Virus record (IMG/VR): IMGVR_UViG_3300009149_000126
Coordinates: 1-35,975 of that record
DNA length: 35,975 nucleotides
Source of the DNA: a virus
Reading direction: 5' to 3' (one strand)
How positions within the stretch are numbered: the stretch's first letter is position 1; the number at the start of each line of letters is the position of its first letter. The translations under genes and the position numbers were made by a program. This document shows, piece after piece, positions 5,364 to 26,928 of this stretch. Under the pieces are notes generated by a model that saw only the letters and a list, made by a program, of their open reading frames with translations, had not been told where the DNA came from and made no database searches.

Positions 5364-5526
5364 TTTCTTTAGTGTCTCTTTTGGTGTCTCTTTCAGGTTT
5401 ATCAAGTACCGGTACAATCACCACATGGTGTCTCAAGTCACCACCCGGTGTGATATTGGTCTCAGTCTCATAAGTATATCGTATGAAAGATATATCCAGG
5501 TCATGGAGTGCAACTAAATCCTTCAT
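5353..5526 (-). CDS. Small overlapping protein, 57 aa, unknown function
   Basis: A short frame of 57 codons starting MKDLVALHDLDISFIRYTYE and ending TKENGR. Its ATG shares one base with the TAA of the J-like gene (TAATG), and an AGGA lies 6 bases upstream, so both the coupling and the RBS fit a real gene. Its last 11 bases overlap the start of the I-like gene. It has a plausible beta-strand N-terminus and a charged, Lys/Arg/Asp-rich tail. I recognise no family. It fills what would otherwise be a 163-bp gap between two tightly packed genes, which supports it. The alternative, that it is an untranslated spacer with a chance frame, is less likely given the RBS. Confidence 0.6.
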   Translation of the reverse strand: MKDLVALHDLDISFIRYTYETETNITPGGDLRHHVVIVPVLDKPERDTKRDTKENGR

Positions 5527-8500
5527 TATTGATCCTGATCCTCATCATAAGTAAAGTCTAAGTCACCCAAATTCAAATAGGTGGCATTACCGGGATTAAT
5601 ATTTCGAGTAAGGTCATCGGTACCCACCACATAAGTTACCGTGTAGTCATGGTTACTAGGAACATCTTTAACCAAAGCAGAGTCATACAGATAACCAATC
5701 GAAACTTTTTGACCATTGGTGATGCCACCCGTGGTGATTCGACGTAATCCTACAGGGATGGTTGAACCCCCCTGAACAATGGTGTAATCCACACCCAGGG
5801 TATAGGTGGTAGTTTGTGCTAAATTCTGCACCACTAAGGTGGTTGTAAATATTTTCAAATTACTCAGAAGTGTTACATCCGTGTTATTCAAATTATGTTG
5901 TTCATTTTGGATTTGAGTTACACCCCCAGCCAGCACCACCAAAACTCTATTAGCCGTGAGACTCTTACGAGTTGTCACTATGAAATTTTGGGTTTCCGTG
6001 GGTGATATGAAGGGAGACAAAGCCGCCAATGTAACATCATCACTATATCCAGGAATGGATATACCCTCACTCCCAATGATGTAGGAGTTACCGATGGCAC
6101 CATTGAGAGGTGAACCATTCAGTGCCAGGGTTGCCGTCACCAAATTGGTTTCGTCATCATCTTGAAAAACCCCCCGAAAAATACTGGGTAAACCACCCCC
6201 ATCCGTGGTGGCATTTTCAAGGGGGTCATTGATCAGATAAACGGAATTCAGTGATGTGGACCATTGAAGTATCAAAGATACATCCGAATCCTGATCCGTG
6301 GTGATCACCTCACGAATAACCTGTGAATCAGAGGCTCTTACCATTTTGGTAAGGGGTACTTCGGTATATGAAACTACACCACCCCCACCGGCATTTTCAA
6401 TAACATCAATGATATCCGATTGACGTACGGGTTGACCTAAAACAAGTGAATTGAAAAAATTGGTGAGGTCTGTTCTCACATCACTATCCGCTTGTGCGGG
6501 TTTTACCCCCGATTCCAATACTATTGTAGCAGTAAGGTCCACGGGTACTTCAATGGCTTCTTTGACCAGTACATCAGCCGTGATATGTCGTTGTGTATCG
6601 ATTTCTTCTTGCGCAATTTTGATCAGGAGATTGGTAAGGTAGGCCACCTGGAAGTTTTCATCATGCTCATAAGAAACCAGGATGGTTTGACCCGACACGA
6701 TATTCCCCGTCTCCACTCTCTTTATCCCAATGGGTGTGGTGGAAGTTCCATCTATGAGGGTGTAGTCAGGTGAACCCGCTGGGTCAAAGGGACTAACATA
6801 GGTGGTAAGACTATCCTCAGAAGTGACCACAATGGTAAGAGGATTAATACCTAAACGGTCCAAATATTCGGTATATTGACCCAAGATCACATGTGTTTCA
6901 TCCAGAACAATCACGGGGTCACCCGAGGGTATTGCAACATCGGGGTCTTGGTTGTCGGTGAGTTGCAAAAAGTCTCCCGCCAATGTGGAACGCCCCTTTT
7001 TCAAGGGGTCTTCCAGTTTGTATAGGGCAAATGCATCCGGGTCTACTTCACCTGTCACAGATCCGGTCATGGATTCGATTTCCCTAACGGGTTGGCGTGA
7101 CAACACATATTTGTCGGAAGTTCTATAACGATAGTCTCCCAGAATCACCTGGGTTAGGGTAAAGCTTGCGGGGTCATTGTAAGTGCTATCCAAACGAATC
7201 GCGTTATAGGAAATGATCTCCACATTGGTAAGGTTGAAAATATGACCCGTGCTGATATTTTTGAGTTCATACCCAAACGTGGGGTGATCTAGCATTTGTA
7301 TAATGGGGTTAGCAGACGTTAATTTGGGGTCCACCGCCCGAAATTCCAGATTATTAGGGTCACCCACCACTACAAACTGGATGTCTTTAGCAATTTCAAA
7401 TGTAAATGCAAAATCATCGGTTACGGTGGCTAGGTTTTCACCCTTGATCCAAAGGTCTACCTTACCCAATCGGTGGGCCTGATCCACCGGGTCATAATCC
7501 CGTTGCATGAGACTGTCACCCGCTGCCACAATGCGGACTTGTTCTACCCCTGGGACATCAATGATGTTTTTACGGTAACCCTGTTCGGTGCCAGAGTCCA
7601 CCGAGGATAAGACACCCTGTGCCTCCGCTGCCAAATCTCTATTGGATTGCACACCCGTACCCCCAAAGGTAGGGGCTTCATTGATCACGGAAAGTCCTGC
7701 GATAGCATTTTCCGTTTGCGAAATTTGCCCCGCTGCCAAGTTGCCAACTTCGCCCTCTTCTTCGGCCTCCACAGAAACACGGACTGAATATCGCCCGGTA
7801 GTGGCACTGAAAAAGGAAGCTATGTTCTCTATAGTAATTTCTGCGGCTTGTGTGGTTCTAAATCGAGTGCTACCCCCCAATACCACAGACCCAATGGGTA
7901 GTGGTATAGAAGCAGGTGGCCTTTTACTCGTGTAATAGGTGACTTCACCCCTGGATCTCTTACCCGCAGAACGAAAAACACCGTATTTGGAGGCCAATGA
8001 CTCAAAAGACAAGTCAATTATTTGTTGTACTTCGTCATCCGTTACCAGGAAGAAAGCAGCTTTCAATGCCAATTTATACTGGGATTGATTTACGGGAACC
8101 GATTCCCCTGAGAAAGAGGGGTCATCAATTTCCAGCAATGTGGAAAACGATTGGGCCCGGTGGACAAAATCCAGGATAAAGCGTAAGCGTTCGGCCTCAG
8201 AGGAAAATGGGTCGATAAATACATCTCGGGTGTAAGAACCCGATTGGATAGCAACCTGAGGTTGAGACCTGAAAATAGAAAGCGAAGTATCCTGAATGAT
8301 CTGTTGTCTGGTAGTCAGAGGGAAGGTACCCACAGCGGCAGAAATTATCAGGGGGGATGCTACCACCTCAGGAGAAAATGAAGATTCTATCTCCAACTGC
8401 CGTGTTTCATCAAAAAACACTGCGGTGACCACATAATACAGTGGGTCTTGTGCTGGAATGGTGGTGTAATCGCTATTGGGTATTGTGGGGGGGGTAGATT

Positions 8501-9284
8501 CGAAATCTGCATCCCGGTCATGGGTAAAGGTATACTTCCGTGAGGTGACCACAGACTCTACCACGATGGTGGTTCGAACCCTGCTTACTGTTTCAGGTAT
8601 TTCTAGTATTTCATTAAAATCTGTTTGCAAAATCAGGTCATCTTGATCTTCCTGAGTCTGTAATATTTTCACAAACAGTGGATCTGCCGAGGGGGTACCA
8701 TCGGGCAGTGAATTAATAACGGCGTCTACATTAAGGGTGCCTATTTCAGAAGTGGATTCGGAAGTAGTTCCCGTAATGATCAGGTAGGCATTAATTTGGG
8801 AATACCCTTCTTGACCACCACCCGGAGAGGTGGAAGCGTAGAAGTTGTAACCTCTGACATTGGGGTCATCCAGCCCCTCAACGGTGACGTCTACCACCCC
8901 ATCCTTGCGTTCTACGGAAATACCTGTAGGAGGGGTTACAAGGAGTCCTAAATCACCCTCCTGAATTAGATTAGCGTCTATGGTAGCCGAAGAGGAAACT
9001 TCCCCAGTAGTGGAAATGGATCGGACATCTACCTGATTAGAACCCGCAAGGAGGGTAAGACCCTCTGGATATGCAGAGGGGTTGGGAACAATGAAGGAGG
9101 TACCTTCAAAAAAAATCACATCGGGGTCACTGGTAAAAGCGGCACCCCGAATGGAAACCTCCATATCTGCCGTATTAGGGTCAATAACACCACTAAAAAA
9201 TCTATTGTTTTGGGTCGTGGTGAAAATGAACGTTTCACGAAGAACATTATCGGGACCCAAGAATTTTGGAACGGTGATCGCCAT
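5526..9284 (-). CDS. Baseplate J-like wedge protein, enlarged (1252 aa)
   Basis: Begins MAITVPKFLG at 9284, with AGGA 7 bases upstream and 4 bases after the W-like gene. The Baseplate_J signature is clear at about residues 458-555: PIGSVVLGGSTRFRTTQ, then the Gly/Asn turn GEVGNLAAGQI, then INEAPTFGGTG followed by a polar helix. The typical J C-terminal domain is at about 902-981 (ADVLVKEAIEVPVDL ... QSDIIDVIENAGGGGVVSY). J proteins (Mu gp47, P2 gpJ, T4 gp6 family) form the wedge ring around the hub. This one is several times longer than P2 gpJ. Residues 1-450 carry beta-sandwich stretches (fibronectin-III-like near 120-210 and 270-310), a segment of about 270 residues is inserted before the C-terminal domain, and about 270 residues follow it. 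Two copies of a strand-rich module occur at about 828-875 and 1158-1200. Confidence 0.88.
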   Translation of the reverse strand: MAITVPKFLGPDNVLRETFIFTTTQNNRFFSGVIDPNTADMEVSIRGAAFTSDPDVIFFEGTSFIVPNPSAYPEGLTLLAGSNQVDVRSISTTGEVSSSATIDANLIQEGDLGLLVTPPTGISVERKDGVVDVTVEGLDDPNVRGYNFYASTSPGGGQEGYSQINAYLIITGTTSESTSEIGTLNVDAVINSLPDGTPSADPLFVKILQTQEDQDDLILQTDFNEILEIPETVSRVRTTIVVESVVTSRKYTFTHDRDADFESTPPTIPNSDYTTIPAQDPLYYVVTAVFFDETRQLEIESSFSPEVVASPLIISAAVGTFPLTTRQQIIQDTSLSIFRSQPQVAIQSGSYTRDVFIDPFSSEAERLRFILDFVHRAQSFSTLLEIDDPSFSGESVPVNQSQYKLALKAAFFLVTDDEVQQIIDLSFESLASKYGVFRSAGKRSRGEVTYYTSKRPPASIPLPIGSVVLGGSTRFRTTQAAEITIENIASFFSATTGRYSVRVSVEAEEEGEVGNLAAGQISQTENAIAGLSVINEAPTFGGTGVQSNRDLAAEAQGVLSSVDSGTEQGYRKNIIDVPGVEQVRIVAAGDSLMQRDYDPVDQAHRLGKVDLWIKGENLATVTDDFAFTFEIAKDIQFVVVGDPNNLEFRAVDPKLTSANPIIQMLDHPTFGYELKNISTGHIFNLTNVEIISYNAIRLDSTYNDPASFTLTQVILGDYRYRTSDKYVLSRQPVREIESMTGSVTGEVDPDAFALYKLEDPLKKGRSTLAGDFLQLTDNQDPDVAIPSGDPVIVLDETHVILGQYTEYLDRLGINPLTIVVTSEDSLTTYVSPFDPAGSPDYTLIDGTSTTPIGIKRVETGNIVSGQTILVSYEHDENFQVAYLTNLLIKIAQEEIDTQRHITADVLVKEAIEVPVDLTATIVLESGVKPAQADSDVRTDLTNFFNSLVLGQPVRQSDIIDVIENAGGGGVVSYTEVPLTKMVRASDSQVIREVITTDQDSDVSLILQWSTSLNSVYLINDPLENATTDGGGLPSIFRGVFQDDDETNLVTATLALNGSPLNGAIGNSYIIGSEGISIPGYSDDVTLAALSPFISPTETQNFIVTTRKSLTANRVLVVLAGGVTQIQNEQHNLNNTDVTLLSNLKIFTTTLVVQNLAQTTTYTLGVDYTIVQGGSTIPVGLRRITTGGITNGQKVSIGYLYDSALVKDVPSNHDYTVTYVVGTDDLTRNINPGNATYLNLGDLDFTYDEDQDQ

Positions 9285-9288
9285 CTAT

Positions 9289-10359
9289 TTATCCTGATGT
9301 TAAAAGGGAGCCACCCAACAAGGGTACCACACTGGGAACAGAGAAGACTACAGACAAAGTAACAGGTTCCGAGGATGCATTTTGGATCACCACGTCTACC
9401 AAATAAACAGTAGGGTCTTCATTGGATTGCGAGGTCTGCACCGATAAAATGGAAAAAAGCCTCTCTTTATAGGATACCTCTTGATACTTAGATTGTTCCA
9501 ATTGTAGATTTTGAAGGTTCCGTAGGGCCGAACGAACATCTTCATTGATGATTGCGGCTACAGAACTCAGAGCCTTAGATCCAATCCGAGATCGTATTGT
9601 GGTTCCGTACCAGGGACTATAAGGATTGGACCCCCTATCGGTCAGGACAATTTTCAAAGCCGCTTGGTTTAACAAATTTTCATTGTCGATCAGTAAAACT
9701 TGACCGGCAAGATCAAACCTAGCGTCATTCTCCTGGTAAGTAGCACGGCATCTACGACAACGTTGAACAGGTACCGAATAGGTGACCTTGAAGATGGGGT
9801 TGGATTTGACCACCTCATTGAAACGGGGGTACCTGTTGGTGATCGTATCAGGTCTCAGATACAGACTCCAACTTGGGTATACGGTGCGACCCCTGGCACC
9901 GCGTTGTAAACCAAAACCTGCCGCTACTGTGGCAGCACCACTAACGGAAACTCTAGATTCAGGGCCAATTTTATCAATATCGGTAAACACCAAATGACCA
10001 TTTAGATTCTGAGCTACCATCAACTTAGATTGCAAGGTGAACACCTTGACAATCTGATCGGTGGTAACCCTTTCACCTATGGGTAACGTCAACAAGACGG
10101 TTTCCGACTGGGACTTCACCTGTAAAGTGTTTTCATTGCGAAGGATGCGAAAGGGGCCCGAAAGACCGCTTGCCAATTCGGCAGGGGTATGGAACCCACT
10201 TTGGGGTACAAAAAATTCGTCATTCACCAGGATACGCACTAATCCCGTAGATGCTACGGGCTGCAATGTTTGCAAGTCGCGGCGATCATCACCCAACAGT
10301 ACCCGTTCCTCTATGGTGAGGTGAGGACACCTATGAAAAAGTTGAACGTCTTGGCTCAT
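9289..10359 (-). CDS. gp25/W-like baseplate wedge protein with extended N-terminus
   Basis: 356 aa from ATG at 10359 (MSQDVQLFHRCPHL). The RBS is poor (GGA 6 bases upstream). Residues about 220-345 resemble the gp25/W family: LLNQAALKIVLTDRGSNPYS, then WYGTTIRSRIG, a helix (VAAIINEDVRSALRNLQNL), and a closing beta pair. The pattern of a helix, a 'T..G..P' turn and 'YG' is typical, and the position just before J is where Mu gp46 and P2 W lie. W proteins are usually 100-150 aa; here about 200 residues precede the core. That part contains GFGLQRGARGRTVYPSW (148-164) and a Cys pair in RCRRCR (200-205), which might bind a metal with partners not obvious here. The N-terminal function is unknown. 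Confidence 0.6.
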   Translation of the reverse strand: MSQDVQLFHRCPHLTIEERVLLGDDRRDLQTLQPVASTGLVRILVNDEFFVPQSGFHTPAELASGLSGPFRILRNENTLQVKSQSETVLLTLPIGERVTTDQIVKVFTLQSKLMVAQNLNGHLVFTDIDKIGPESRVSVSGAATVAAGFGLQRGARGRTVYPSWSLYLRPDTITNRYPRFNEVVKSNPIFKVTYSVPVQRCRRCRATYQENDARFDLAGQVLLIDNENLLNQAALKIVLTDRGSNPYSPWYGTTIRSRIGSKALSSVAAIINEDVRSALRNLQNLQLEQSKYQEVSYKERLFSILSVQTSQSNEDPTVYLVDVVIQNASSEPVTLSVVFSVPSVVPLLGGSLLTSG

Positions 10360-10384
10360 TATGTTTCCATTCCTGGTTTACATT

Positions 10385-10392
10385 TGTTTATA
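10385..10392 (-). promoter_or_regulatory. Possible late-type promoter box (TATAAACA) for the W-J-I-fibre block
   Basis: On the minus strand TATAAACA starts 33 bases before the W-like ATG. It differs at one position from the T4 late consensus TATAAATA. Transcription starting about 10 bases downstream would leave a short leader and could re-initiate expression of the wedge and fibre genes past the opposing gene. The box is short and the context AT-rich, so chance is possible. Confidence 0.3.
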
Positions 10393-10436
10393 GCTTACAT
10401 TACAATAAACTATAGAAAAGATAATCCCAAAAGGTG

Positions 10437-10442
10437 TATAAT
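10437..10442 (+). promoter_or_regulatory. -10 box TATAAT for the zinc-ribbon gene
   Basis: An exact TATAAT lies 25 bases before the preferred ATG. No TTGACA-like -35 element is seen at 16-18 bases upstream (10413-10420 is AT/GA-rich). The predicted start near 10449 gives a leader of about 19 bases that still contains the whole Shine-Dalgarno sequence. It sits in the only sizeable gap in the window and points in the only direction not used by the other genes. Confidence 0.5.
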
Positions 10443-10454
10443 GGGGGAACCAAT

Positions 10455-10461
10455 AAAGGAG
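10455..10461 (+). promoter_or_regulatory. Strong Shine-Dalgarno sequence (AAAGGAG) deciding the start
   Basis: AAAGGAG is 6 bases before ATG at 10468. The earlier in-frame ATG at 10441 overlaps the -10 box and has no RBS, so 10468 is chosen. Confidence 0.75.
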
Positions 10462-10467
10462 AAACCT

Positions 10468-10644
10468 ATGATGGATGTAAATTGCCCACTGTGTGATACA
10501 GATTTCGAAGCAGATGGTGCCGATGTTTTTGTGGAGGAGGCTTCCGAGGGGGAGATCCCAGAGGCATTTGTGGTGTGTCCCAATTGTGACGCACAGATCA
10601 CAGTGGAAGAAAATGAATTCAATGGAGGGGGTGAGAATTATTAG
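10468..10644 (+). CDS. Very acidic 58-aa zinc-ribbon protein, plus-strand accessory (moron-like) gene
   Basis: The only plus-strand gene. The product begins MMDVNCPLCDTDFEADG. Cys6-x2-Cys9 and Cys37-x2-Cys40 (CPLC, CPNC) form a classic zinc-ribbon knuckle pair 27 residues apart. The protein has 16 Asp/Glu and no Lys, Arg or His, which is unusual for a nucleic-acid-binding ribbon. Its TAG overlaps the TAA of the convergent 289-aa gene (TTAG at 10641-10644). It has its own TATAAT box and a strong RBS, so it can be expressed independently of the structural operon. Zinc ribbons of this size often bind proteins of the transcription machinery. Strong acidity could suggest DNA mimicry or anti-defence, but the sequence does not prove either. 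No specific family is recognised. Confidence 0.8.
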   Translation: MMDVNCPLCDTDFEADGADVFVEEASEGEIPEAFVVCPNCDAQITVEENEFNGGGENY

Positions 10645-11510
10645 GCCATAAGGGAGAGGTAAGCTTCTTCTGCCACGTCAACATAAAAAGAATCGTATTG
10701 TGCTATTTTACCCTGGTTTGCCTTCATGCTATTGACCGTACCATCCTCTTCGGCATCGAAAAAAATACCATCTATCAACGCCACTATGTTTTGAACCCTC
10801 AAGGAACCCACAAAACGATTTTCATCAAAATCCGGCAACATATATAAAGTACCACCATGGGCCTGTACCAAAAGGTCATCCCGCTCTTGTTCGAGTTGTT
10901 CCCGTAGGTCACACAATTTGATGATCCTATGTTCCAGGTCATGTATCTTATATTTGATCTCCCGGTTCACCCACCTCCTGGCACTGGACATCATATCAAC
11001 CACGGGGTTGGTGTCGTCACTGGGTTCGGTGCGGTCATCCAAGCGATTCCCAATGTACTTTTTGATGGCAGGGAAACCACCCTGGTATTTATGGTAAGTC
11101 CCCACTGGTTCATTGTAATTTTTAGACTGAGGTGCCGTGACACCGCCATGGGGATAATTGTCCGCCTGAACGTTGGTGCCACCCGCTTGGATGATTTCGG
11201 TTTGATCCGGCATAAAGAAATGTGAAATGTCAAAAGGGTTACCACCCATTGCCACGTAAGCTTGAATCAACTTACCCAACGAAGATTTATCCGTGACCGT
11301 AAAACCCGTGCGGTGTTCGGTAACTTGGACCCTATTGGTTTTGGAATCTGTTTCACGCTGGTACTGAACTCGGATCAACCCTATCCGTTCAATTTCCGCG
11401 TTAATCACTTCGATCCTTTTTCCTACATCCCGTCTTTCCTGTAGTATGAAGTTACGAAATGCAATCCAATACCCAGAACGGAATCGACTCAATGCACCAA
11501 AAGATGACAT
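10641..11510 (-). CDS. Structural protein with two coiled coils, 289 aa, unknown
   Basis: Start chosen at ATG 11510 (MSSFGALSRFRSGYW), one base after the TAA of the 921-aa gene. A longer frame begins upstream at 11585, but it would run deep into that gene. A G-rich run lies about 10 bases upstream; coupling to the upstream stop is likely. Residues about 20-55 and 180-220 are charged, heptad-like helices (EVINAEIERIGLIRVQY; LEHRIIKLCDLREQLEQERD). The middle is Gly/Asn/Tyr-rich (GGVTAPQSKNYNEPVGTYHK). No signal or membrane segment is seen. The position between the 921-aa protein and the W-like wedge suggests a baseplate component or assembly factor. I do not recognise the family. Confidence 0.7.
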   Translation of the reverse strand: MSSFGALSRFRSGYWIAFRNFILQERRDVGKRIEVINAEIERIGLIRVQYQRETDSKTNRVQVTEHRTGFTVTDKSSLGKLIQAYVAMGGNPFDISHFFMPDQTEIIQAGGTNVQADNYPHGGVTAPQSKNYNEPVGTYHKYQGGFPAIKKYIGNRLDDRTEPSDDTNPVVDMMSSARRWVNREIKYKIHDLEHRIIKLCDLREQLEQERDDLLVQAHGGTLYMLPDFDENRFVGSLRVQNIVALIDGIFFDAEEDGTVNSMKANQGKIAQYDSFYVDVAEEAYLSLMA

Positions 11511-11511
11511 A

Positions 11512-14277
11512 TTAGGTGGTACCCCCCAAAGAACCCAATAGGGTAGTGATAAAAGACGGGGCCCCACCGGCCAAAATGACCACACCCGCAGAATATGCCG
11601 TGCTACCGTCCGGTGGTTTGTTGGTGGAATTTACTAACCCCGCTATAATCCCCTCGGTGCCATTGGCTACAATGGGAAGCAAGGACGCAGAAGAGAATTT
11701 AAACTTCACCAACGTTTGAAGTACCGAATCGATACGATTTATCAAATTTTGAAGTTCCGTGACACGGGCCCTCAAAAAGTCAATGTAAGCCAAAATCCCA
11801 TCTGTGGCAGATTTGGACCCCAACTGGATAGACTTAACCCAACCATTAATAGTTTGAAAAAACTGATTTAGTTCCGGGATCGCGGTGAAAAGACGGGTAG
11901 CTACCCACTCCCCATCTTTCAAAGGTCGTGTCTTTGCAGAAGCCGCTATTTGAAGAACTATCCGGGCCTCATTGTACAAGGTGGAATCTATCAGATTTCG
12001 GCAGTAAAGAACCTTACCGGACTCTTCACCACGGATCAAGTTTTCCTGGTTACCATATAGCACAGGTGAAGAATCAGCAGAACCCAAAACAAAACTAAAG
12101 TCATTGAGGGTACCCAGAAAGGGGGTAGGGAATTTGTAAATAGCCTTGCGTGTAAGAGGATCAATCTCACGGTATTTTTTGACCCAAATTTCCAAATGCG
12201 GTTTGACATTCAACACCACATCTATTTCTTCTTGGGTCATTTGAGATTTGAACACCTCATGCACGGATATTTTCTGTGTTTGCAGAAATCCGGGGGTCCT
12301 TTTACCTATGATGTTGTTGAAGAAAAAGTTACGTTCCACGATTTCTTCGGCGGCACCCACGGACCAAGGGTTTGCACCCAGGCCATTACTTAGATCAGTG
12401 CTTTGCAGTGATTCTAGGATAGTTTGTGCGGGGAACATATAGGCCACATCGGACAGTTCCGTATTTTTTGAATCAGTCCACTTCCAGGTTCTAAGGTTGG
12501 TGGTGATATCCGCGATTTGTTTTTCCAATGCTGGAGTTGGTCCCATATCCTCATAAAGTTCACTTGCAAACTTTCGACAAGTCAGTAATAACTTTTGTCG
12601 AAAGTTCCTGGGGTCAACTTTTTTCTTTTTGTGTTCACCCTCCAGGTCACGGTACATCTGTTTCAGAATAGTGGAGGTGCCTTCCAATCCCGTTGCGGTA
12701 GCAGCAACACCCTGGACCACGGTGGAGGTTTTAGAATCTAATTGATCGTTGACTTGTTGGGTAGTAAGAGGACCACCCAATGCTTGAACCTGCTCGGTCA
12801 TTAGAGGTAAGTCTGATCGAGAAAGAAATGACACTGCCAATGCTGCCGCGATACCATCCAGAAACTTAGCAGTGTCATTAGAAGGGATGGTAATGGTCGT
12901 AGCCTGTGACTTTTCCCCTATGTCCGTGCCAAAATGAAGGTCTTTACCGTTTTTATTAGAGGTAGTTGCCGTTTGCACAGGGGTACCCGACTTGCCAAAG
13001 TCTGATTGATCTAGCGTGTATTTAAATTCTTCATTTTGAGTGATCAACTCAGATACGGGGGTAACTCGAACATAATAGGTGCCGGGTTGCTTTGAAATTG
13101 TGGCCACGACCTTGTTGCCCTTGACTTCAAAATCTGCCTCATAGGGTAAGTCTTTGGTGTCAATCGTAATGTCAAATCTATTTCCAAGAGTGAACAACTT
13201 AGTCGGGGTGATTTGGCGGGTATCCACAAAAAAGGTTCTTTGAAGTAGATATCTGCTACCTTGTTTGAGCAAACTCAAATCAATAGGTACCTTGTCTGCC
13301 TGTGTCTTGATAGCATAAACACGTTTCCCACCTTTTCGTAAATTTCCATCAGCATCCACGTTGGCATTGTATTGAATGTCATCCTCGAACTCCAGTTGTT
13401 GGATGCCACCAAACAACACCAAGGGTGTACCTGTGGGGTCCACCACGGGGCCATACTCCTTCAAGGTAGTCTTGGTGCTATTATTACCCACTACACTGGG
13501 TGAATCAGGTGCGGGACGTTCGTAGAATATTTTGAGACCATCACGTACTGTGGAAATCTCTACCAAAAAACCACCGGGTGCAGGTAAGGGCAAATTAATA
13601 GTAGCTGTTTTAGCACTCGAAGTAGATAGATCCCAGGAGACATTAAATTGATCAGGGACTCTATTATAAGCCGCCAAAAAATTAGGAAGTGTTTCAAAAG
13701 CAGAAGACAACAGACTGGAAAGGCCATATTTAACTTTTAGGTTATTACCCACAGGCAAGGCTTTATTGTCATCCAAAATGATCTGGAAGAATTCGATAAA
13801 TTTCTTGACGAAACTAATAATGTCTCGAATGTCGGAGACCTCTTGGACAGAGTGATAAAAGAAAAAGGCACCTACGCTGGAAGCAGTGGAAAAATCAGGT
13901 CTTGTAGAATCTTTACGATCCGTAAGACGTGCCACCATTCTACGTTCGAAAGCGTTATAACCGCCCCGCAAGTTATCAAATGGGTAAGTAAGTAAATTCC
14001 AGTCACCCGCAATGTAAAGACCAATCTTATCCAGATCTGTTATGAAGGCATTGATCTGATTGATCACCACATCAGTTAACGCCTTCAAGGGGTCCACATA
14101 CCCTATGGAAAAAGACTTGAGTGTATCCAAGACTGTAAGGACAAGACTCAATCCCGTGTTGACCGTATTTGCTACATTAGTAATAGATGTGGAAAGTGCC
14201 TGGACTTCTTGGGGGAATTCCAGATTTACAGTTTTCCACTGGCCAAGGCTAAGGGGGTTTTGCGGGTTGTCTGCCAT
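11512..14277 (-). CDS. Large tail/baseplate structural protein, 921 aa, unknown family
   Basis: Starts MADNPQNPLSLGQWKTVNLE at 14277, 2 bases after the 75-aa gene; the RBS is weak (GGCGG about 10 bases upstream). Residues 20-200 are amphipathic helices (SITNVANTVNTGLSLVLTVL) with a conserved-looking stretch GGYNAFERRMVARLTDRKDS near 105-125. Residues about 205-260 and 350-415 look like beta-sandwich (fibronectin-like) segments (PAPGGFLVEIST; PGTYYVRVTPVSEL). The C-terminal half returns to helices, ending in a Gly/Ala-rich tail. The mixed helical and FN-like layout suits a baseplate-periphery or fibre-attachment protein. Its membership in the block between spike and W supports a structural role. 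No catalytic motif is seen. Confidence 0.75.
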   Translation of the reverse strand: MADNPQNPLSLGQWKTVNLEFPQEVQALSTSITNVANTVNTGLSLVLTVLDTLKSFSIGYVDPLKALTDVVINQINAFITDLDKIGLYIAGDWNLLTYPFDNLRGGYNAFERRMVARLTDRKDSTRPDFSTASSVGAFFFYHSVQEVSDIRDIISFVKKFIEFFQIILDDNKALPVGNNLKVKYGLSSLLSSAFETLPNFLAAYNRVPDQFNVSWDLSTSSAKTATINLPLPAPGGFLVEISTVRDGLKIFYERPAPDSPSVVGNNSTKTTLKEYGPVVDPTGTPLVLFGGIQQLEFEDDIQYNANVDADGNLRKGGKRVYAIKTQADKVPIDLSLLKQGSRYLLQRTFFVDTRQITPTKLFTLGNRFDITIDTKDLPYEADFEVKGNKVVATISKQPGTYYVRVTPVSELITQNEEFKYTLDQSDFGKSGTPVQTATTSNKNGKDLHFGTDIGEKSQATTITIPSNDTAKFLDGIAAALAVSFLSRSDLPLMTEQVQALGGPLTTQQVNDQLDSKTSTVVQGVAATATGLEGTSTILKQMYRDLEGEHKKKKVDPRNFRQKLLLTCRKFASELYEDMGPTPALEKQIADITTNLRTWKWTDSKNTELSDVAYMFPAQTILESLQSTDLSNGLGANPWSVGAAEEIVERNFFFNNIIGKRTPGFLQTQKISVHEVFKSQMTQEEIDVVLNVKPHLEIWVKKYREIDPLTRKAIYKFPTPFLGTLNDFSFVLGSADSSPVLYGNQENLIRGEESGKVLYCRNLIDSTLYNEARIVLQIAASAKTRPLKDGEWVATRLFTAIPELNQFFQTINGWVKSIQLGSKSATDGILAYIDFLRARVTELQNLINRIDSVLQTLVKFKFSSASLLPIVANGTEGIIAGLVNSTNKPPDGSTAYSAGVVILAGGAPSFITTLLGSLGGTT

Positions 14278-15142: not shown

Positions 15143-18100
15143 CTAAACAGTTTTAATTGATTTTCTTCGAAGTAAACTTTTTTCCTGTTTCGCTAGGCGT
15201 TCAGGAAATTGGGCATCAAATCTTTCGATGGATGCAAGGGTTCCCTCAGTTCTTTGGATCCGATAAGACAACCATGCCAGTCGAAGTGACCTAAACCTAT
15301 CGCGGTTATCCAAAACTAGACCTATAAGGTCAGGAAGCACTGGACGTACCGACCCACCACTTGAGGGGTCTTCATATGCTGTATATTTGGTTCCAACTTT
15401 GGGCAGTACATTCAAGCGTTTGTCCAAGATCCAAAAACGTCTGTCCAGAATGGACAATGAATCACTGTCATTCGTGAAAGGCTGTATCGAGGTTTGACCC
15501 CTCAAGTCTGTAATCAGGGCATTAGATAACACACCTAACCCATCCTCTGGGTAGGTGGGCGAACCCAAATCGGAGACGTGTTCGTCTCTTTGGAATACGA
15601 AGTAGGAACCGTGTTTGTTCCCTTGAGTCAGGAAATTTAGGTTTTCCAACCAAGAATCCAGGCGTTCTCGCATCATAAGTATAAGATCTATAGCCTCGTT
15701 AGAAAACAAGGAAGAGGGTCGAATAATACGATACGAGAAAGGACGCAGAGAAAAAAGATTCCCGGCAAAGGAATTGGAGGGCGAGCCATTTTCACCCGCC
15801 TTTGATGTAGGACGAAGGTCCATTTGACCTTCGACCCCCCCTGTACCCGCCAAAGTGGAACCCCCTACTGTGGGGTATACCGCATAACCATAGAGGGGCA
15901 ATTGGGTGGGGTTTGTGGGAAATACCTTGAAGGGTGGCACCGAAGAGGTATAATCCGTCTCAGGTGAAACTTCCAGATGATCCGCATTAACCGCTATAAC
16001 CCTATACCAACCCCTGTTGTCATCTAATTCACTGGGGCCCCTTGGGTCATGGGGTAAACCTCGTTCCAGGATAGACACGTCACCAAAGGGCCGTAAGCCC
16101 TTTTCAGGGGGTGTTGTTTGCCCAGTGGGACCTGAGACCTCACCAGCGGGGTCAACCACCAAAATATCCCCTACCTGGACACCTGTTGCCGCAAAATTAT
16201 TCGCGCCGATACCTGTGATGTTGTCATCGTAAAGTTTATTACGGTCTGCCCACAATGCAGGAACATAACCACCGGTTTGCAAGGTGTAGTCGGCAGTTCG
16301 TTCCAAGATCAATTCATCTGTAATGAGTTCCATTAGTTGGGCATGGGATTGCTCATGAGGGACGGGGGCTTGTTTCAGGTAAATCTCAAAATTCTTACCC
16401 GTGGGGTCCGAGATTCTAGGGGACACCACCAACTCCGTTCCCGACTTGATCGCCAAAATAGAAGTTTTCTCAAGCACCACACCTTGAGCATCCAATATCC
16501 TAAGTTCATCTCCAGAATTGATATTGACATCCAAGTCCGTGAACAAACCCAATTGGGTGCCACCTGTAGCAATAAAACTATCCAACTGTTTAATGCTTGT
16601 GGCGTAGCCTGTTGCCACACCCCGTCGAATTTCATAGGCATATCGTAGTGGGTCTAAATTACGGCCCACCTGATCTTGAACCTCATGCCATCTCCTAACA
16701 CGACGAACTTCAAAGGTCACATTTTCAGGAGAGGTTTCACCGAAGGATACTGCATCTCGTAAACCAATTTCACCCGCCGTCAATGAATGTGTTGCATCCA
16801 CAACATGAGCAGAGGTAGAAGCCAAGTCAAAAACAGGCCGTGGGAATGAGGGTTCCAGGAAAATACCTGCTTGAGCATGGAATCCCGCCGTAGGTGTGGA
16901 GACATCCGAGGTCACTAAGGTATCACCGGGGACCAGACATTGAACACCTGCTTTGGTATGCACCGTAGACCATGTAGTAGCCGTTGCCGTTAGGTTAGCA
17001 TCCAATCCGGTGAGTGCAATCAGGTTGGGAACATTTTCATAGATAGGGGTGTTGGTCATAGGTATGAAACTGGTACTGGGAGTGGCCACATGTTGGTCGA
17101 AACCAATTTGATCAGCACCCACAACTGCGGGTAAATCTTTGAAGTCGGACACTGTAAAAGAAACCGGGGTGCCTACATCACTATAGATGGAGAAATCCTT
17201 GAACCCTAAAAGACTCACCCCTGCTTCCGTGTAACCCACCACATTATTAGAAGGAAGACCTTGACCCCCACCAATGGTGAGAGGTAAATAAACCATACCA
17301 GAAACCTGTGCGTCTACCAGAATACTATCCCAGAAATCCACCATGATGGAAACCAAGGGAATATCAATCCCGTCGGTGTTCTTATATTTGGAGAACCCAC
17401 CCGTAAGTGTAAAACGATAGTTTGACCCTACAGAAGTGATCGTAGAGTATTCCGCAGCAACCACCTCTGAATCTTTACCAGCTACCTTGGTGAACACATA
17501 GATCCAACCCGGTGCCGTAACAAAGGCATTACCCGAGGGGGAATCCGCGTTGGGGAACACATCTGAAATAGTGATCTCACCACCAACGCCAAAAGCAGGG
17601 TCAAAAGAAATCACTCTGGGGAATTCTATATCAACCCAACCGGAACCTGCACCCGCCGTGGTCTGTAAGGTTACTTCCCGAAATTTACCTGTAGGTACCG
17701 TGGTGTTGTCTTCAATGGCATGGCGTACCAAATAACTACCCGCCTTAGTAGTACCAATGGGGCCCCCTCCAGAGGCACTTTTGACTACTAGAAGGTCACC
17801 CGACTGTACCTTAGAAACCGCACCCGATAAGGTGGTTATTTCTGTGATCCGATTATCATAATCAACCACTGCATCACAGTCACCCGTACCAATACAAATA
17901 GTACCTGTAGCATCTGGGGTACTTTCATCTTTAGTGGAAGATGGTAGTGCCGAAAAAGTTATGGTTTGACCCACAACTGGAAGTATGGCCGTGTTACCAA
18001 AGCCCTCAAAAGCCATTACTTTGGTGGAACCCAATTCATCACCGGCACCCGATGCCGAAGCCGGTGTGAATGTCCCTACATCAGGTATCCGAGGCAAGAA

Positions 18101-21100
18101 ATTGAAAGGAGAACCACCATTGGTCTCAGAGGGGCCATTGACGGTCAATAAATCCGTATTGGGGCCTTCCACCGTGTACACACCTAATTGACTCTCTACC
18201 AGCACGGCACCCGACGTCACAGCACCTCTAGGGAGCATAGTAGATAAATCAAAACCTGTGTTGAAAGTCAGACGGTCTAATCCCACATTGGCACGATCAG
18301 TACCAGAGGCGGGGGTGTATAAGAGGGAATCCGTGGTGTCTATGCTAATGGTAAAGTCAAAGGGGCCTACACCAAAAGGTGGAACACCTAACCCCACTAC
18401 CCCTGTAATACCGGGTAAAAATATAATTTTATCCGTGAATGTGGGAACACCCGTCAAAATACCGGCACCACTACCACCTGTAACCGCTGCACCCTTAATG
18501 GTGATGGTCTCAACCAAAACCCCAAAGGTGTTGTAAATATCAATTTTAATCACGTTGGTGTTTGGGAACGTGGCCAATGCATTAGACACCACGTTATTCA
18601 AACCACCCGCGATAGCCACACCCACCCCATCATTCAAAACCAATGTGGGAACGGAAGCTATATCCATAAAGGTATCAGAAGTGTTGTCCGTCACCAACAT
18701 GCCTGTAATGCCCCCACCACCTATATGGGTCATGGCATTGTTGAGTATGTAACGACAACGATCACCCCGACGGCTGGGGGTAACAAACCGTGGGGGTTCC
18801 AGGAGACTGGAGGAGCCATCCCAGGAAACAGCACCCACAGATAAAATACCTTGTGACCCCTTCTGAATTTTGGATGCGGTGTCATCTACTTCTACCAGAA
18901 GTAAATCATAATCCTGCACATCCCCTATGCCTTCTTCCAAAGAACCATTGGCCACAGGGGTTACATCTTTTGATGTGATCAAAGTAGAAGGGGGCAGTAT
19001 GCCCATTATAGAGGGCAGAATATTTCCGTCATCCCCCAATACTTCATCGGGGTATACATATAAAGTGCCATCCACACTTTTGGTTTCTTGGATTTCTGCC
19101 ATACCCACTTCGATCTCACCAAAGCGGTCCAATTCTGTGTTTTGTGTCGCCAAATAGGGTATGGCCCGATCACCCGAATCATCTTTAGATTGACCCAATA
19201 AAGCCGGAAATTCCAGAGGTTCCACACTATCATTGGTGTAGCGGATCTGTGCTTCCACATTAGTAACAGGTTTTGGGGGTTTCTGCCCAAAGATTTCTTT
19301 GATTCCCAGGAAAGAGGGGTCGAAAAAAGAGGGCAGGGAAACATCTACCAAGTCTCCCTCTTTACCCCGAAAGGTAGTGTCAAAACCCACTCTGTAGTTG
19401 GATATGGAATCACCTAAGCGTTGGAGGTCTTCTTGTGTAGGTGGATCAGATGGTTGTTGTGTTTCACCCGAAGGGGGTGTGGCAAAAATAGTATCTCCTT
19501 GGGAAATGCTTAGGGGGGTTCCTTGGGCCACGTCCGTTTGGAGTCTCAAAACCTGAGTAGCATCTACTATAGGTATATCCCCACCAAAACTGTCTTTAGA
19601 CTTGAGGGTGATAAGACACCCCTTGGTCACCTGATCCACATAAACAGCAGACAGGCGATTGGACGAACCTATAGTGAGAGTTTGACCAGAATAACCAATT
19701 TCAAAAGTCACCCCATCAGGATTCCCTACCCCTATTTGTGTCTTATCCGAATAGGCAAACCAACCTGGAAAATTCAAGTCTGGGTCACCCATCAATAAGT
19801 CATTGAGGGTGCCTCCATTTGCAGACAGTTGAGTCAGGTCGGGCAAGTTGGTGTCAGGGTCAATGGGGAAGTCTTTAAGTTCCAGGGGTGTTGCAATGAT
19901 TGTGGGTTTACCTGCGGTAGTGGCATCTAACGTGGGAAAACCCTCTGGGGCATAGGCCCATACCCTAGCTCTAGGTCTACGATCCGACAACACAATATCT
20001 CTTATGTTGCGAATGGCACCCAACACGGGGTTTGAGAATTTCCCAATTTGACGGCCAAAGGTCGATTCGAATTTAGGTAATGAAAACCCTTTTTCAAATG
20101 AAAAACCGGGTGGTTCGGTCATTTGAAGGAATGAATAAACACCCTTTTCGGTGGCAGAAGCCCCTATACCTGGGAGGGTAGAGAAAAAAGCCTTAGTTTG
20201 TTCTGGGAAGAGACGGGAAAAAATATGGGGGTTCGCCATTCTCTGATAGATACCCTTGGCGATCAATCTGAAAAATGGTAAGGGCAACGGTGTAATTAAC
20301 CGTAGACTCACATCCCCAATGGTTTCCAAAACCACATCATCTACATCATTTTGAATATGTAACCTTTGTCGTGACAGCAATAGTTCCAAGTTACTGGCAC
20401 TAAGAAAATCACCGTCAACCACCCCATTGGTTAGACTCACCGTCAAGGGGTTGACGATATTGTCATCCTCTATGATTACAATTTCGTTTGCGCTATTGGC
20501 GGAGTTGAAAACTTCCGACCACAAATTTCGGGGTATGAGTTCCCCCGTGATTTGATCTTCATACCCAGGGGGGGCCACCTCACGATTGCGACCCACAAAG
20601 AACTTAAACTTACCGTCACGATCCCCAATTATGCCACCGGATATAGTTTCAAGTATTTGTTCAAAAGCCACAATGACTTGATTGTAAAAATCCAGGAACA
20701 CCCTTGCAGCCCTATCGGCACTTACCAGTGCTGATCTTTCTGAGAAAATAGAGGGGGTTCCAAAGTTTTGGTTTGCGGTACCCGTGGAAGTGGTGATGTT
20801 GGGTCCAGTGGAACCGGAAACTGAGGTTGCTGCCTCTTGAGCCACTTCTGCCAAGTACAACTCCAATGGCAGTACATTGAAGAAAAACGTATCAGGATTC
20901 TTAAACGTATAAGTGGCCCTGAGGGTACCACCCAACAAACTGTTCTGTTCACTGGGTGTGGTGACGTGTGAAAAACTAGCACGATATCGAGGGAAAGCCA
21001 AAGATTGATTCTGGAAAAATGGAGACAGAGTACGCCATTTGGAATAGCGCAAAATTAGTGTTTGGCCCGGAGATAAAGGTTCTTGTACGGGTTCCAATAA

Positions 21101-24100
21101 AGAGATCACACCCGTGTCAAAATCTACGGTGTAGTCTACTAGAGGTACCAGGGTTCTCCCTGGAAGTTCTTGTCCTATGGTATCCCGTTCCCCTTTGAGG
21201 ATTAACTCAAAAGGTTGATCGGCAAGAATCGCAGAAGATAAACCATATCCTATGGGATTAAACGCAGAGGTTGAAGCAATCTGTGGGCTAACCCCCAAGA
21301 ATAAACGAGAATCCGGGGGGTACACGGGTCGGGCCGATATTTTGACGGTACCCTGGGTGATCTCCTGTGGGGTGCCAGATGTAAAATTGATAACCGTTTG
21401 TTTGTGATCCTCAGACAAGTTGGCACTAGCAATCACAAACGGGATACCTGCTATCTCCATCAAATGGCCGGGGACTGCAAATTGACGAAGGTCTCCGTTA
21501 AACCGAATTTCCTGTGATTCCCTTTTGAAAGCTTCAAAAGAGGCAGTCACCAGTATGAAAAATCCTGCTTTGGCTGTGGGTACGGGTACACCATCTACCA
21601 AGGTGGTTACCGGGTCATTCGTTATTAGAGAAAGAACGTCGTTTGCGGGGGCCCTGGTACCAACCTCTTTAGTTGGTGTGGGAAACACCGTCACAGAAGT
21701 AAGGTCCGTGAGGGCATCATAACTGTTTTCTTTAATGTAAAAGGGGTATGCCCCAAGGCGCAATAATTGACCCACCTGGATATCCGTACGGTTTGTTTCC
21801 AGGGTGAACGTGGGGTTGTTCTTTTCCAGATAAAAGGGTGGGCGGTAGATAGGTACCTGTGACGCAGTGTAATCCCTTTCACCACCGAATGCCTCAAATA
21901 CGGCATAGCTGATTTGAACCACGGTACCCTGAGGAATTTCCTCTAGGAAGACAATTTGATTATTCGTAAAGTCCACCACAGCCGAGGTAGTACCGAAATT
22001 CTGTTGTTTGATCCCCACGTACATTTGAGGTTCTATTCTTTGGTCCACAGTTTTGCTAGTGGGATTAAACGAATAGGTGAAGGAGTTAACACGGGTGGCT
22101 TCTTCCAACCGTACAAAGAGAGGTAAGAATTCCGTGACCCGGATGGTGTTACCTTCATCATCCAGTTTCTTCCCACCCTGGTCATTGGCCACAAAGTAAC
22201 TGACCTCCACGATGTTACCTGATCTCAACGGTTGCTTAAAAGCGAACCCTGAAACCAATGGGGACACGGCAACATCCAAGCGATCCTCTGTCACCATCTG
22301 TTCAACCCAATAGGCTGTGATTCCCGCATAGGTAGTCATATCCGCGTCGGAGTAATTGAGGTTACCTGTAATGGGGTCGAGTTCCACTTGCCCTGCTGTT
22401 AGTAAATCGGTGCTTAGGAAGCTTTCCACATAAGTAACAGGGGAGCCTGAATAATCAGAAATTACATCGGAACCAAACCGCAATTCCTGAGTGTCCGTTC
22501 GATACTCGACTTCATCAGATGCAAGGGGGCCTGTGAAATCCGGTACGGCTACCAATTTGGTGGAAGCATGTGTGAAGTCCACAGTGCCTACCCGGATCAA
22601 AAATGACTGGTCAGTGAATCTCAAGGGGGATAAGGGTACAAACAAAGAATTATTGGCCAACGTACCCAATGGGGTTTGTGTCAAGGGCAACACACTTACC
22701 GAGGAACCAGATAAGCCAAATCTGACAGAATTACCCCGCTCCAAAGAAAAGGAGGTCACTGCATTTCTGTCTAATGCCTGTGCGGTGGCATCCACAGGGA
22801 CAACGCCTACAGAAGAAAGTACATTGATAATAAAAGGTTCTTCTGGCAGGTGGTTAAAGCTATTAAATATTTGATCTGCCACAATGGCGGGGTCAAAAGA
22901 ATCTGAGGTGAATCCCTCATATAATTCCCACGATACTGGGGCGGTCCCTGAATCTGTTAGAAATACAGGGGATACTTCCAGGGACGTCTCACTCAGAACA
23001 CCCTCAACGAAGAAACTTCCTTGGGTGTCCCCGGAGATCAATTTCAAACGGTACCCCTCTTGGATACCCTGGGTGATGAAAGTGGCATTAGGATCTGAAA
23101 ACACATTGGTATTCGCGCTAAAGGAACCTTTGGCACCCTGAGACTTGAGGTCACCCACACGGTCAATCAATTGTGCAAATCCCGAATCGCCATTTCCAGG
23201 AAGGATGTAATCTTCATTGAGGTTCAGGTTGGAAAAAGCAGCACCGTCTTCTGCCAACTGGAGGGAACCACCTAACACGGGTAATAAAGTTTCCTCTACC
23301 ACTTGGTTGCGTCCCAGAGACAATGCCTGTGAGGGTTGTTCCACACGTTGATTTTCAATATGGGATTCCAACCATGCAAATCGAGAACCCCCAAATTGGT
23401 ACTGGACCTCCTCATAGTTATCCAGGGTTTTGTTTACCAGAGTTACGGAACTTCCCCTTTTGATAACAGTGGTCAACTCAAAAAACTTGTTTTCGTCATA
23501 ACCCGCTACATCTTGAAGTGGTGGGAAATCCAAAAACACATACTGTTGAGGTTGAATGGAATCCGTGAGTACCGTATTTTCGAGGCGACTTCTAGACCGA
23601 AAGTCGGATTGGGGTTGTGATCTGTCTTTGTTCAAGGGACTGCGAAATAGACCCACCGAAATACCGAAGTCCACCAACCAATTGTTAGACCCACCAATAG
23701 CTCTCCACCCAGGAAGGAAACCTAACGCGGAAGCACCTGAGAGGTCTTTGACCCCAAGGGTACCAAAGGCAATTTCAAGACGCCCTGTAGTTATATCACC
23801 CGCTTCCAAAAGAACCCTACCATTGAGGGCAAGTGCCTGACCGGTACCTGTGATTACAGTATTTATGGAAGTCGCCACGGTGATAGCATCAAAAGGGTCG
23901 GTAAAGGAAGGTCCCAATAGTGAGGAAGGCCATGCATAGGAAGTCCCGTCTATAGAGAAGTAGAAGACCTCTGTGCCATCAAAGCGAAACACATCGCGTC
24001 CACGAGAAAAGAGTCTTGCTTTGTTGGTGTAGATTGCAGGGGTGAAGTCTGCTTGGAGGAAATATATAAGGTCTCCCTCAAATTGGATTCGATCCGCCAA

Positions 24101-25864: not shown

Positions 25865-26333
25865 TTTTACGTATATACTCCATGGCAATTTTCCTTGCCG
25901 AAGGTTTTCTGCGATAAACGGTCATCCCACGTACTTTAATTTTCTCCCTGCTAGGAATATCCCCAATATAATCTCCAGAGATCTCAAAAGCACTTCCGAG
26001 GGCAAAGATATGAGTAGCCCTCGTTTTGATTAAACGCACTCTCCAGTTTTGGGGAGTTTGTAACGTGGACTGAGCAAAGTAACCCGTGTCATCTTCCATA
26101 AATGAGGGGTCCGCATAGAGGCGATGTAGGATCACAATATCGTAATTTTTACTCTCTGCAAGGAAATCACGTCCCTCATCCAAGGCAATGTAATCCAGTT
26201 TATGTGGTTCCTCTAACCAGCGTTCCCGAAGTTCCGGGTCATTTCGGATAATCCAATGGACTACTTGAATTTGGTCGGACTTGTTTTCAGGGTCACCCTG
26301 GGTGGTCCCCACATGTGCTATGCTAAGGGTCAT
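25854..26333 (-). CDS. Alpha/beta protein, 159 aa, unknown
   Basis: ATG at 26333 (MTLSIAHVGTTQGDPENKSD) comes one base after the TAG of the preceding gene and overlaps the giant gene by 11 bases. The sequence alternates strands and helices: SIAHVGTT, then a Trp/Arg-rich helix, then YDIVILHRLYAD, then NWRVRLIKTRATHIFALGSA. This resembles a small Rossmann-like or flavodoxin-like layout rather than a beta-sandwich tail protein. The C-terminus is basic (YRRKPSARKIAMEYIRK). No nucleotide-binding P-loop or catalytic triad can be named. The position between spike accessory and giant protein suggests an assembly or regulatory factor, by inference only. Confidence 0.75.
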   Translation of the reverse strand: MTLSIAHVGTTQGDPENKSDQIQVVHWIIRNDPELRERWLEEPHKLDYIALDEGRDFLAESKNYDIVILHRLYADPSFMEDDTGYFAQSTLQTPQNWRVRLIKTRATHIFALGSAFEISGDYIGDIPSREKIKVRGMTVYRRKPSARKIAMEYIRKNEF

Positions 26334-26334
26334 T

Positions 26335-26928
26335 CTAAAACACCTTACTTAGGGGACTGGTCCCCACTGTGGGAAGAGGAGTAGGAGAGGGGGTACCTGC
26401 CACCACACCTATCCCGGTTCCAGTCAGTAATTGAGAGGCGATGCCATTAGCTATGCCTATTGATAGAGTACCCAAATTGGGATCGGAACCCGTTAGGGCA
26501 GATGAAAGGGCCAAACTCAATACGGGTATCAGGGTCAAAGAGTTTGCCACCGTGATTCGGGAAACATCCGACCCAATGGCGACCCCCACAGAAGTACCCG
26601 TATAGGCTGCTGACGCGGTAAACGAAGTGGCAATACCTATGGATATAGCTTTTGCCAATAAAGGGGCTGTAGGGCCCTGCAAACCTGCGCTAGCGAAGGC
26701 TGCTGTCATAAGAGCTACAGAGGGGGCTACATTGAGAGTTCCGGTCACCACACCGGCACCCGCTTGTCCACTGGTAACACCCGTCAAAGCCAAATTAATA
26801 GGAACCTGTGACCATGCCGAAACAGCGTTGCCAACACCTTGGGCAACTCTAGGGAAATTAGGCCCCAATAAATCCGTGGAACCAGCAAGCATGATCGCAG
26901 ACGTGATCGCATTGGGGGTTAATGGCAT
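26335..26928 (-). CDS. Ala/Gly-rich triple-repeat protein next to the spike, 197 aa
   Basis: ATG at 26928 shares a base with the spike's TAA (TAATG), so translation is probably coupled. Three copies of a roughly 60-residue unit are visible at about 5-66, 69-128 and 130-187. Each has a small-residue helix, a 'G..GP..P..A..I..GI' core (for example GLQGPTAPLLAKAISIGIA) and a Gly/Thr-rich beta end (TGTSVGVAIGS). There are almost no charged residues. It is hydrophobic enough to suggest membrane contact, but no Lys/Arg-flanked transmembrane helix or signal peptide is seen. Adjacent to a spike gene, it could cap, line or chaperone the spike, or be a pore-like delivered component. No PAAR motif is visible. 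Confidence 0.75.
   Translation of the reverse strand: MPLTPNAITSAIMLAGSTDLLGPNFPRVAQGVGNAVSAWSQVPINLALTGVTSGQAGAGVVTGTLNVAPSVALMTAAFASAGLQGPTAPLLAKAISIGIATSFTASAAYTGTSVGVAIGSDVSRITVANSLTLIPVLSLALSSALTGSDPNLGTLSIGIANGIASQLLTGTGIGVVAGTPSPTPLPTVGTSPLSKVF

Follow-up and report, generated by a model that had tools for sequence, protein, structure and literature searches.

Classical morons were described in temperate lambdoid phages. The phage DNA mimics Ocr and ArdA are small, strongly acidic proteins, and we know of no such mimic, these two included, that is a zinc ribbon. The LysW/ArgW carriers carry a C-terminal EDWGE motif with the modified or acceptor Glu, and rubredoxins have a typical length, set cysteine positions and a recognisable second-loop pattern, with a Gly usually following each CxxC. 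Standalone zinc ribbons have been found in jumbo phages, where they are proposed to be transcription factors, and Bacillus phage G shows an expansion of about 35 copies (PMC7824862). Since jumbo phages carry such proteins, a further orphan phage ribbon is a known sort of protein.

We analysed a viral record of 35,975 bp, hereafter the window, in which one gene is encoded on the plus strand against about 15 tail genes on the minus strand. Every long ORF with a recognisable or conserved gene lies on the minus strand, as the original prediction had held. The features of this locus are the following.

5526-9284, minus strand: Baseplate J-like protein, used as query for relatives (Pfam Baseplate_J 1e-17; phrog_6 baseplate wedge 1.1e-25)
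9289-10359, minus strand: flanking gene, gp25-like sheath initiator or baseplate protein, 356 aa (Pfam Sheath_initiator 4.4e-4, below cut-off; phrog_2669 baseplate protein 7.8e-6)
10360-10640: 281-bp insertion slot, flanked by two conserved baseplate-region genes that most relatives have 15-63 bp apart
10413-10442, plus strand: sigma70-like promoter candidate, TAGAAA - 18 nt - TATAAT, with a weak -35 and, alone, not above shuffle expectation
10455-10461, plus strand: Shine-Dalgarno region AAAGGAG
10468-10644, plus strand: gene of an acidic, double-CPxC, probable zinc-ribbon protein of 58 aa, translation MMDVNCPLCDTDFEADGADVFVEEASEGEIPEAFVVCPNCDAQITVEENEFNGGGENY
10641-11540, minus strand: conserved flanking gene without family, whose stop overlaps that of the 58-aa gene

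With the J-like protein and 9289-10359 as queries, relatives were found on contigs as long as 485 kb. The uncultured source is therefore probably a huge contractile-tailed phage (myophage), of which the window would be a fragment. The minus-strand tail operon includes a single frame of 3581 aa (15143-25888, about 10.7 kb) and a 197-aa protein (26335-26928) with 1.5% D/E and 2% K/R that is rich in Ala, Gly, Ser, Thr and Val. The sheath-initiator-like protein carries a CxRC motif that is conserved in relatives as CRRC, CVRC or CLRC. A conserved Cys cluster is found in the N-terminus of the product of 29350-33633 (minus strand) and in L006:1399-4719 (HTPDC...PGCPRC and HVPDC...PSCTGC, respectively), which suggests that a large tail protein has a metal site.

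Translation of 10468-10644 confirms the predicted composition, with CPLC and CPNC in one 58-aa product that has 16 acidic residues (6 D and 10 E) and no Lys, Arg or His, for a computed pI of 4.05 and a charge of about -16.5 at pH 7. The cysteines are C6, C9, C37 and C40, with 27 residues between both CxxC, and the C-terminus reads EFNGGGENY. The curated zinc-finger domain model TIGR02098 (MJ0042_CXXC) scored 26.0 bits against a cut-off of 20.9 as the sum of two stretches, the best of which aligns residues 35-50 with profile positions 3-18 of 38, so that no match runs continuously over both knuckles. The best Pfam model, Zn_ribbon_4, reached only 24.6 against a gathering score of 30.3. In a single-sequence AlphaFold model of moderate confidence (pLDDT 67.5, pTM 0.46), predicted strands 3-6/11-14 and 32-36/43-46 pair beside the knuckles, with block pLDDT values mostly of 64-79, and the tail 48-58 is disordered. 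The VIA-align neighbours (Z <= 4.1) include, besides Cren7-type barrels, a large number of zinc ribbons (RNase P Rpp21-type, NrdR, Rpb9/TFIIS, LysW); these say little on the role, because the ribbons differ in function and the barrels are among them. Foldseek against PDB and BFVD gave no match at E <= 0.001. The protein is thus modelled as what is probably a four-cysteine metal ribbon, with zinc as the likely metal.

Two known families of similar appearance were considered and rejected. A rubredoxin-like iron redox carrier would account for the similar length, the acidity, the cysteines at nearly rubredoxin positions and an IPExxVVCPxC stretch that resembles the second loop (Pfam Rubredoxin E 0.0093), but the score of 16.4 bits falls short of the cut-off of 23, zinc-ribbon models score better, and an Asp instead of a Gly follows each CxxC, so we give this identity only a slight chance. 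A LysW-like amino-group carrier, likewise a small acidic zinc ribbon, has its traces in PF21344 (E 0.012), NF041070 (E 0.063) and LysW 5eio (Z 3.0); however, both scores are under their cut-offs (15.6 vs 27 and 13.3 vs 75), the protein ends in GGGENY with no EDWGE tail, and no LysX-type partner gene was recognised in the window, which makes membership scarcely credible.

The survey of related phages that the original prediction had called for bore out a slot with changing contents. Across relatives, the homologues of 10641-11540 and 9289-10359 stand next to each other in an unchanged order, in 22 distinct lineages after duplicates were merged. The gap between them is 15-63 bp in 15 of these loci and 239-1334 bp in the other 7, the window included. 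In the closest relative (L008, 55-56% identity) it measures 42 bp against the 281 bp of the window, and the flanking genes of both begin and end at matching places, with an LSLMA-stop ending in each. The other enlarged slots hold mostly unrelated genes, as listed here.

L007 (same in L030, L044 and L059): 60-aa frame, same strand as the operon
L009 group: 100-aa frame, same strand as the operon
L048: 58-aa frame
L027: 428-aa gene
L042, 8255-8851: GIY-YIG endonuclease-like gene, by reading of its motif
L012: stretch without clear gene (gap of 239 bp with one choice of start, 479 bp with the other)

Because the gap is 15-63 bp in 15 lineages and the enlarged ones have unrelated contents, the 58-aa gene is a lineage-specific, moron-like insertion in a recurrent slot, an extra gene between genes that are adjacent in relatives. 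Clearly reversed cargo is found in this window only, the other occupied slots following the operon direction, so that reversal is no general property of the slot. A GIY-YIG endonuclease-like frame also lies immediately before the 10641-11540 homologue in L007 (9876-10814), and together with that of L042 it suggests that homing elements target the slot region. No convincing repeats that would mark a mobile element were found at the flanks of the segment. The slot is missing in L006, where the gene order differs; in L006 and L043 the 29350-33633 homologue adjoins the 9289-10359 homologue, and downstream, on the opposite strand, there is a homologue of 10641-11540.

The gene starts with tandem ATGs, and AGGAG precedes the first by 6 nt and the second by 9 nt. 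An alternative in-frame ATG at 10333 would give 103 aa; the 58-aa start is favoured because the RBS of the longer form is weaker and its extension crosses the candidate promoter. The TATAAT at 10437-10442 stands 25 nt before the gene, and its best -35, TAGAAA, matches at 4 of 6 positions with a spacer of 18. Given 15 copies of TATAAT in the window and a poor -35, we treat this promoter as a candidate only. Of the RBS and TATAAT that had been predicted, the RBS stands, and the TATAAT is present within promoter matches that do not rise above shuffles. The moron proposal divides in a similar manner, since the gene is inverted, has its own RBS and is inserted between conserved baseplate-region genes, whereas its promoter does not exceed shuffles and the site listing of the window gives no terminator-like site at its end.

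Could the frame have arisen by chance, with a promoter, an RNA or an antisense 70-aa frame (10410-10622) as the functional part of the insertion? The sole other copy of the gene is identical, on a 99.8%-identical contig, which leaves no diverged copies for a conservation test. The synonymous codon score of the plus frame is modest, at 2.9, and that of the antisense frame is 6.1 over 70 codons. Real 58-codon segments of the phage score 4.4 +/- 2.9, and the value of the 58-aa frame is reached by 14% of antisense segments, so that the codon use of this frame fits phage genes weakly and is not diagnostic. Against this reading, just 45 of 100,000 simulated spacers (first-order Markov copies) contained an ORF of 50 aa or more that carries two CxxC pairs, the plus frame has a good RBS and an ATG while the antisense frame has a TTG start with no upstream Shine-Dalgarno, and an Rfam search gave no match. 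Among 3,834 small six-frame ORFs from 753 kb of related phage DNA, two CPxC motifs were found only in this gene and its twin contig. The loss of the frame alone from an otherwise intact spacer had been named as counter-evidence; what relatives lack is the whole segment, which speaks for an insertion and not for a spurious frame. We consider a chance frame distinctly unlikely, and a real gene that is both ribbon-type and inserted cargo very probable.

Searches with the 58 aa found no homologue in viral contigs besides the 99.8%-identical one. The best match was at E about 2 in phage sequences and E 0.6 in plasmids, and three matches in genome contigs share the CPNCDAQI-type knuckle only, inside larger unrelated proteins. 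The large records behind the related loci gave none either; one of these searches did recover the query's own record, and the other, which had no positive control, is a weak negative. TIGR02098 had no match above cut-off over 20 related-phage records, the best PDB sequence match was an Archaeoglobus Trm112 ribbon (E 0.046), PADLOC returned no match, and a literature search on acidic zinc ribbons, DNA mimics and morons yielded nothing directly relevant. At 31% identity, the closest look-alike is that of L078 (E about 1e-3, within a small set); it was treated as convergent, because its locus has recombinase- and sliding-clamp-like genes and is not a tail operon.

An acidic metal ribbon had been considered unusual, a view that the comparison with other ribbons does not sustain. 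Scanning viral contigs for two CPxC[DE] knuckles at this spacing gave 78 stretches (on 70-odd other contigs), nearly all in open frames and most in acidic proteins of 50-77 aa, although acidic proteins were favoured by the demand for D/E behind each knuckle, and many matches belong to a small number of repeated families. One example, from L077/L106 (MIDPIECPDCEGQGEYPQEM...EDEYDD), has 17 D/E and 4 K/R/H in 56 aa, and a Meiothermus LysW-family ribbon of 108 aa has 32 D/E against 5 K/R/H. The special trait that is left is the absence of K, R and H, and the 58-aa protein is merely the extreme of the acidic ribbons.

Our overall proposal, which we advance tentatively and regard as somewhat short of an even chance, is that of a lineage-specific reversed cargo encoding an acidic metal ribbon that would act as an adaptor by binding a host protein at a basic patch. 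The cargo gene would have entered the recurrent slot of a huge myophage baseplate operon in reverse, and its product would stand alone as a metal ribbon with four cysteines, its surface acidic throughout and its acidic tail flexible. It may be expressed apart from the tail genes, from an independent promoter, and during infection it would dock by protein-protein contact on the host target, possibly a nucleic-acid-handling enzyme or a part of the expression machinery. Binding of DNA or RNA is improbable because the protein has no basic residue; a ribbon that is small, metal-stabilised, acidic and expressed apart from the tail genes would most plausibly meet a basic host-protein surface. The cargo is plausibly of an ordinary kind, rather than a demonstrated case of a new mechanism.

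More specific roles (a transcription binder, an anti-restriction or anti-CRISPR factor, a superinfection factor) had been suggested, and for these we found no positive evidence, the fold matches being generic small ribbons. Binding to RNA polymerase or another transcription component, redirecting host transcription, is in keeping with the Rpb9, TFIIS and NrdR ribbons among the fold neighbours and with the role proposed for the jumbo-phage ribbons (PMC7824862), but those neighbours are generic at Z <= 4.1 and no sequence relation accompanies them, so we judge it unlikely. A minor virion or baseplate assembly factor would suit the position between two baseplate-region genes and the short Cys clusters of neighbouring virion proteins (CRRC in 9289-10359, PGCPRC in 29350-33633); its gene is, however, on the opposite strand and missing in relatives that have both flanking genes intact and almost side by side, and we hold such a factor to be decidedly improbable. 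The 16 D/E of the protein, its lack of any basic residue and the moron-like slot would also suit a DNA or RNA mimic, which through its acidic surface would pass for nucleic acid and block a nuclease, restriction enzyme or CRISPR effector of the host. Yet the acidic make-up is common among small phage ribbons, no known inhibitor was matched significantly in PHROGs, NCBIfam or the fold search (Lar-like TIGR03655 E 0.59; phrog_6422 E 0.26), and AcrIIA4 appears among the fold matches at E 5.4 only, which leaves mimicry very unlikely. Its fullest form, in which a ribbon stripped of basic residues would be a metal-stabilised mimic that disarms a host nuclease or CRISPR effector as swappable baseplate-slot cargo, is highly improbable; if true, it would place DNA mimicry on a scaffold not known for such a role, and the extreme charge makes the protein a simple test case for the idea.

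The insertion slot is a more reusable result than the zinc ribbon itself, which would be one more orphan acidic ribbon. About one third of the examined distinct lineages hold extra DNA in the gap that separates the sheath-initiator-like gene from the gene upstream of it, so this would be a small and easily recognised place to mine huge phages for accessory genes, should the cargo serve host control.

Compared with known systems, the protein resembles the MJ0042-type CXXC finger (TIGR02098; Pfam Zn_ribbon_4 and Zn_ribbon_5) in its CPxC knuckles followed by predicted beta hairpins, and differs in giving two separate half-domain matches with a 27-residue spacing. It shares small size, acidity and a probable zinc-ribbon character with the LysW/ArgW carriers, but neither their EDWGE terminus nor their family scores, and it is small and strongly acidic as Ocr and ArdA are, although no link in sequence or fold to these mimics was found. 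The small standalone phage ribbons (CPxC-x27-CPxC of viral contigs, and the jumbo-phage ribbons of PMC7824862) match it in size, knuckle spacing and acidity; they show no clear homology past the knuckles and are not at the baseplate locus, and only the 58-aa protein is without a basic residue. As an extra gene on the opposite strand, with its own RBS, missing in relatives and set in a slot that carries other cargo elsewhere, it corresponds to the phage morons and free-standing cargo, differing from the classical ones in that its promoter is a candidate only.
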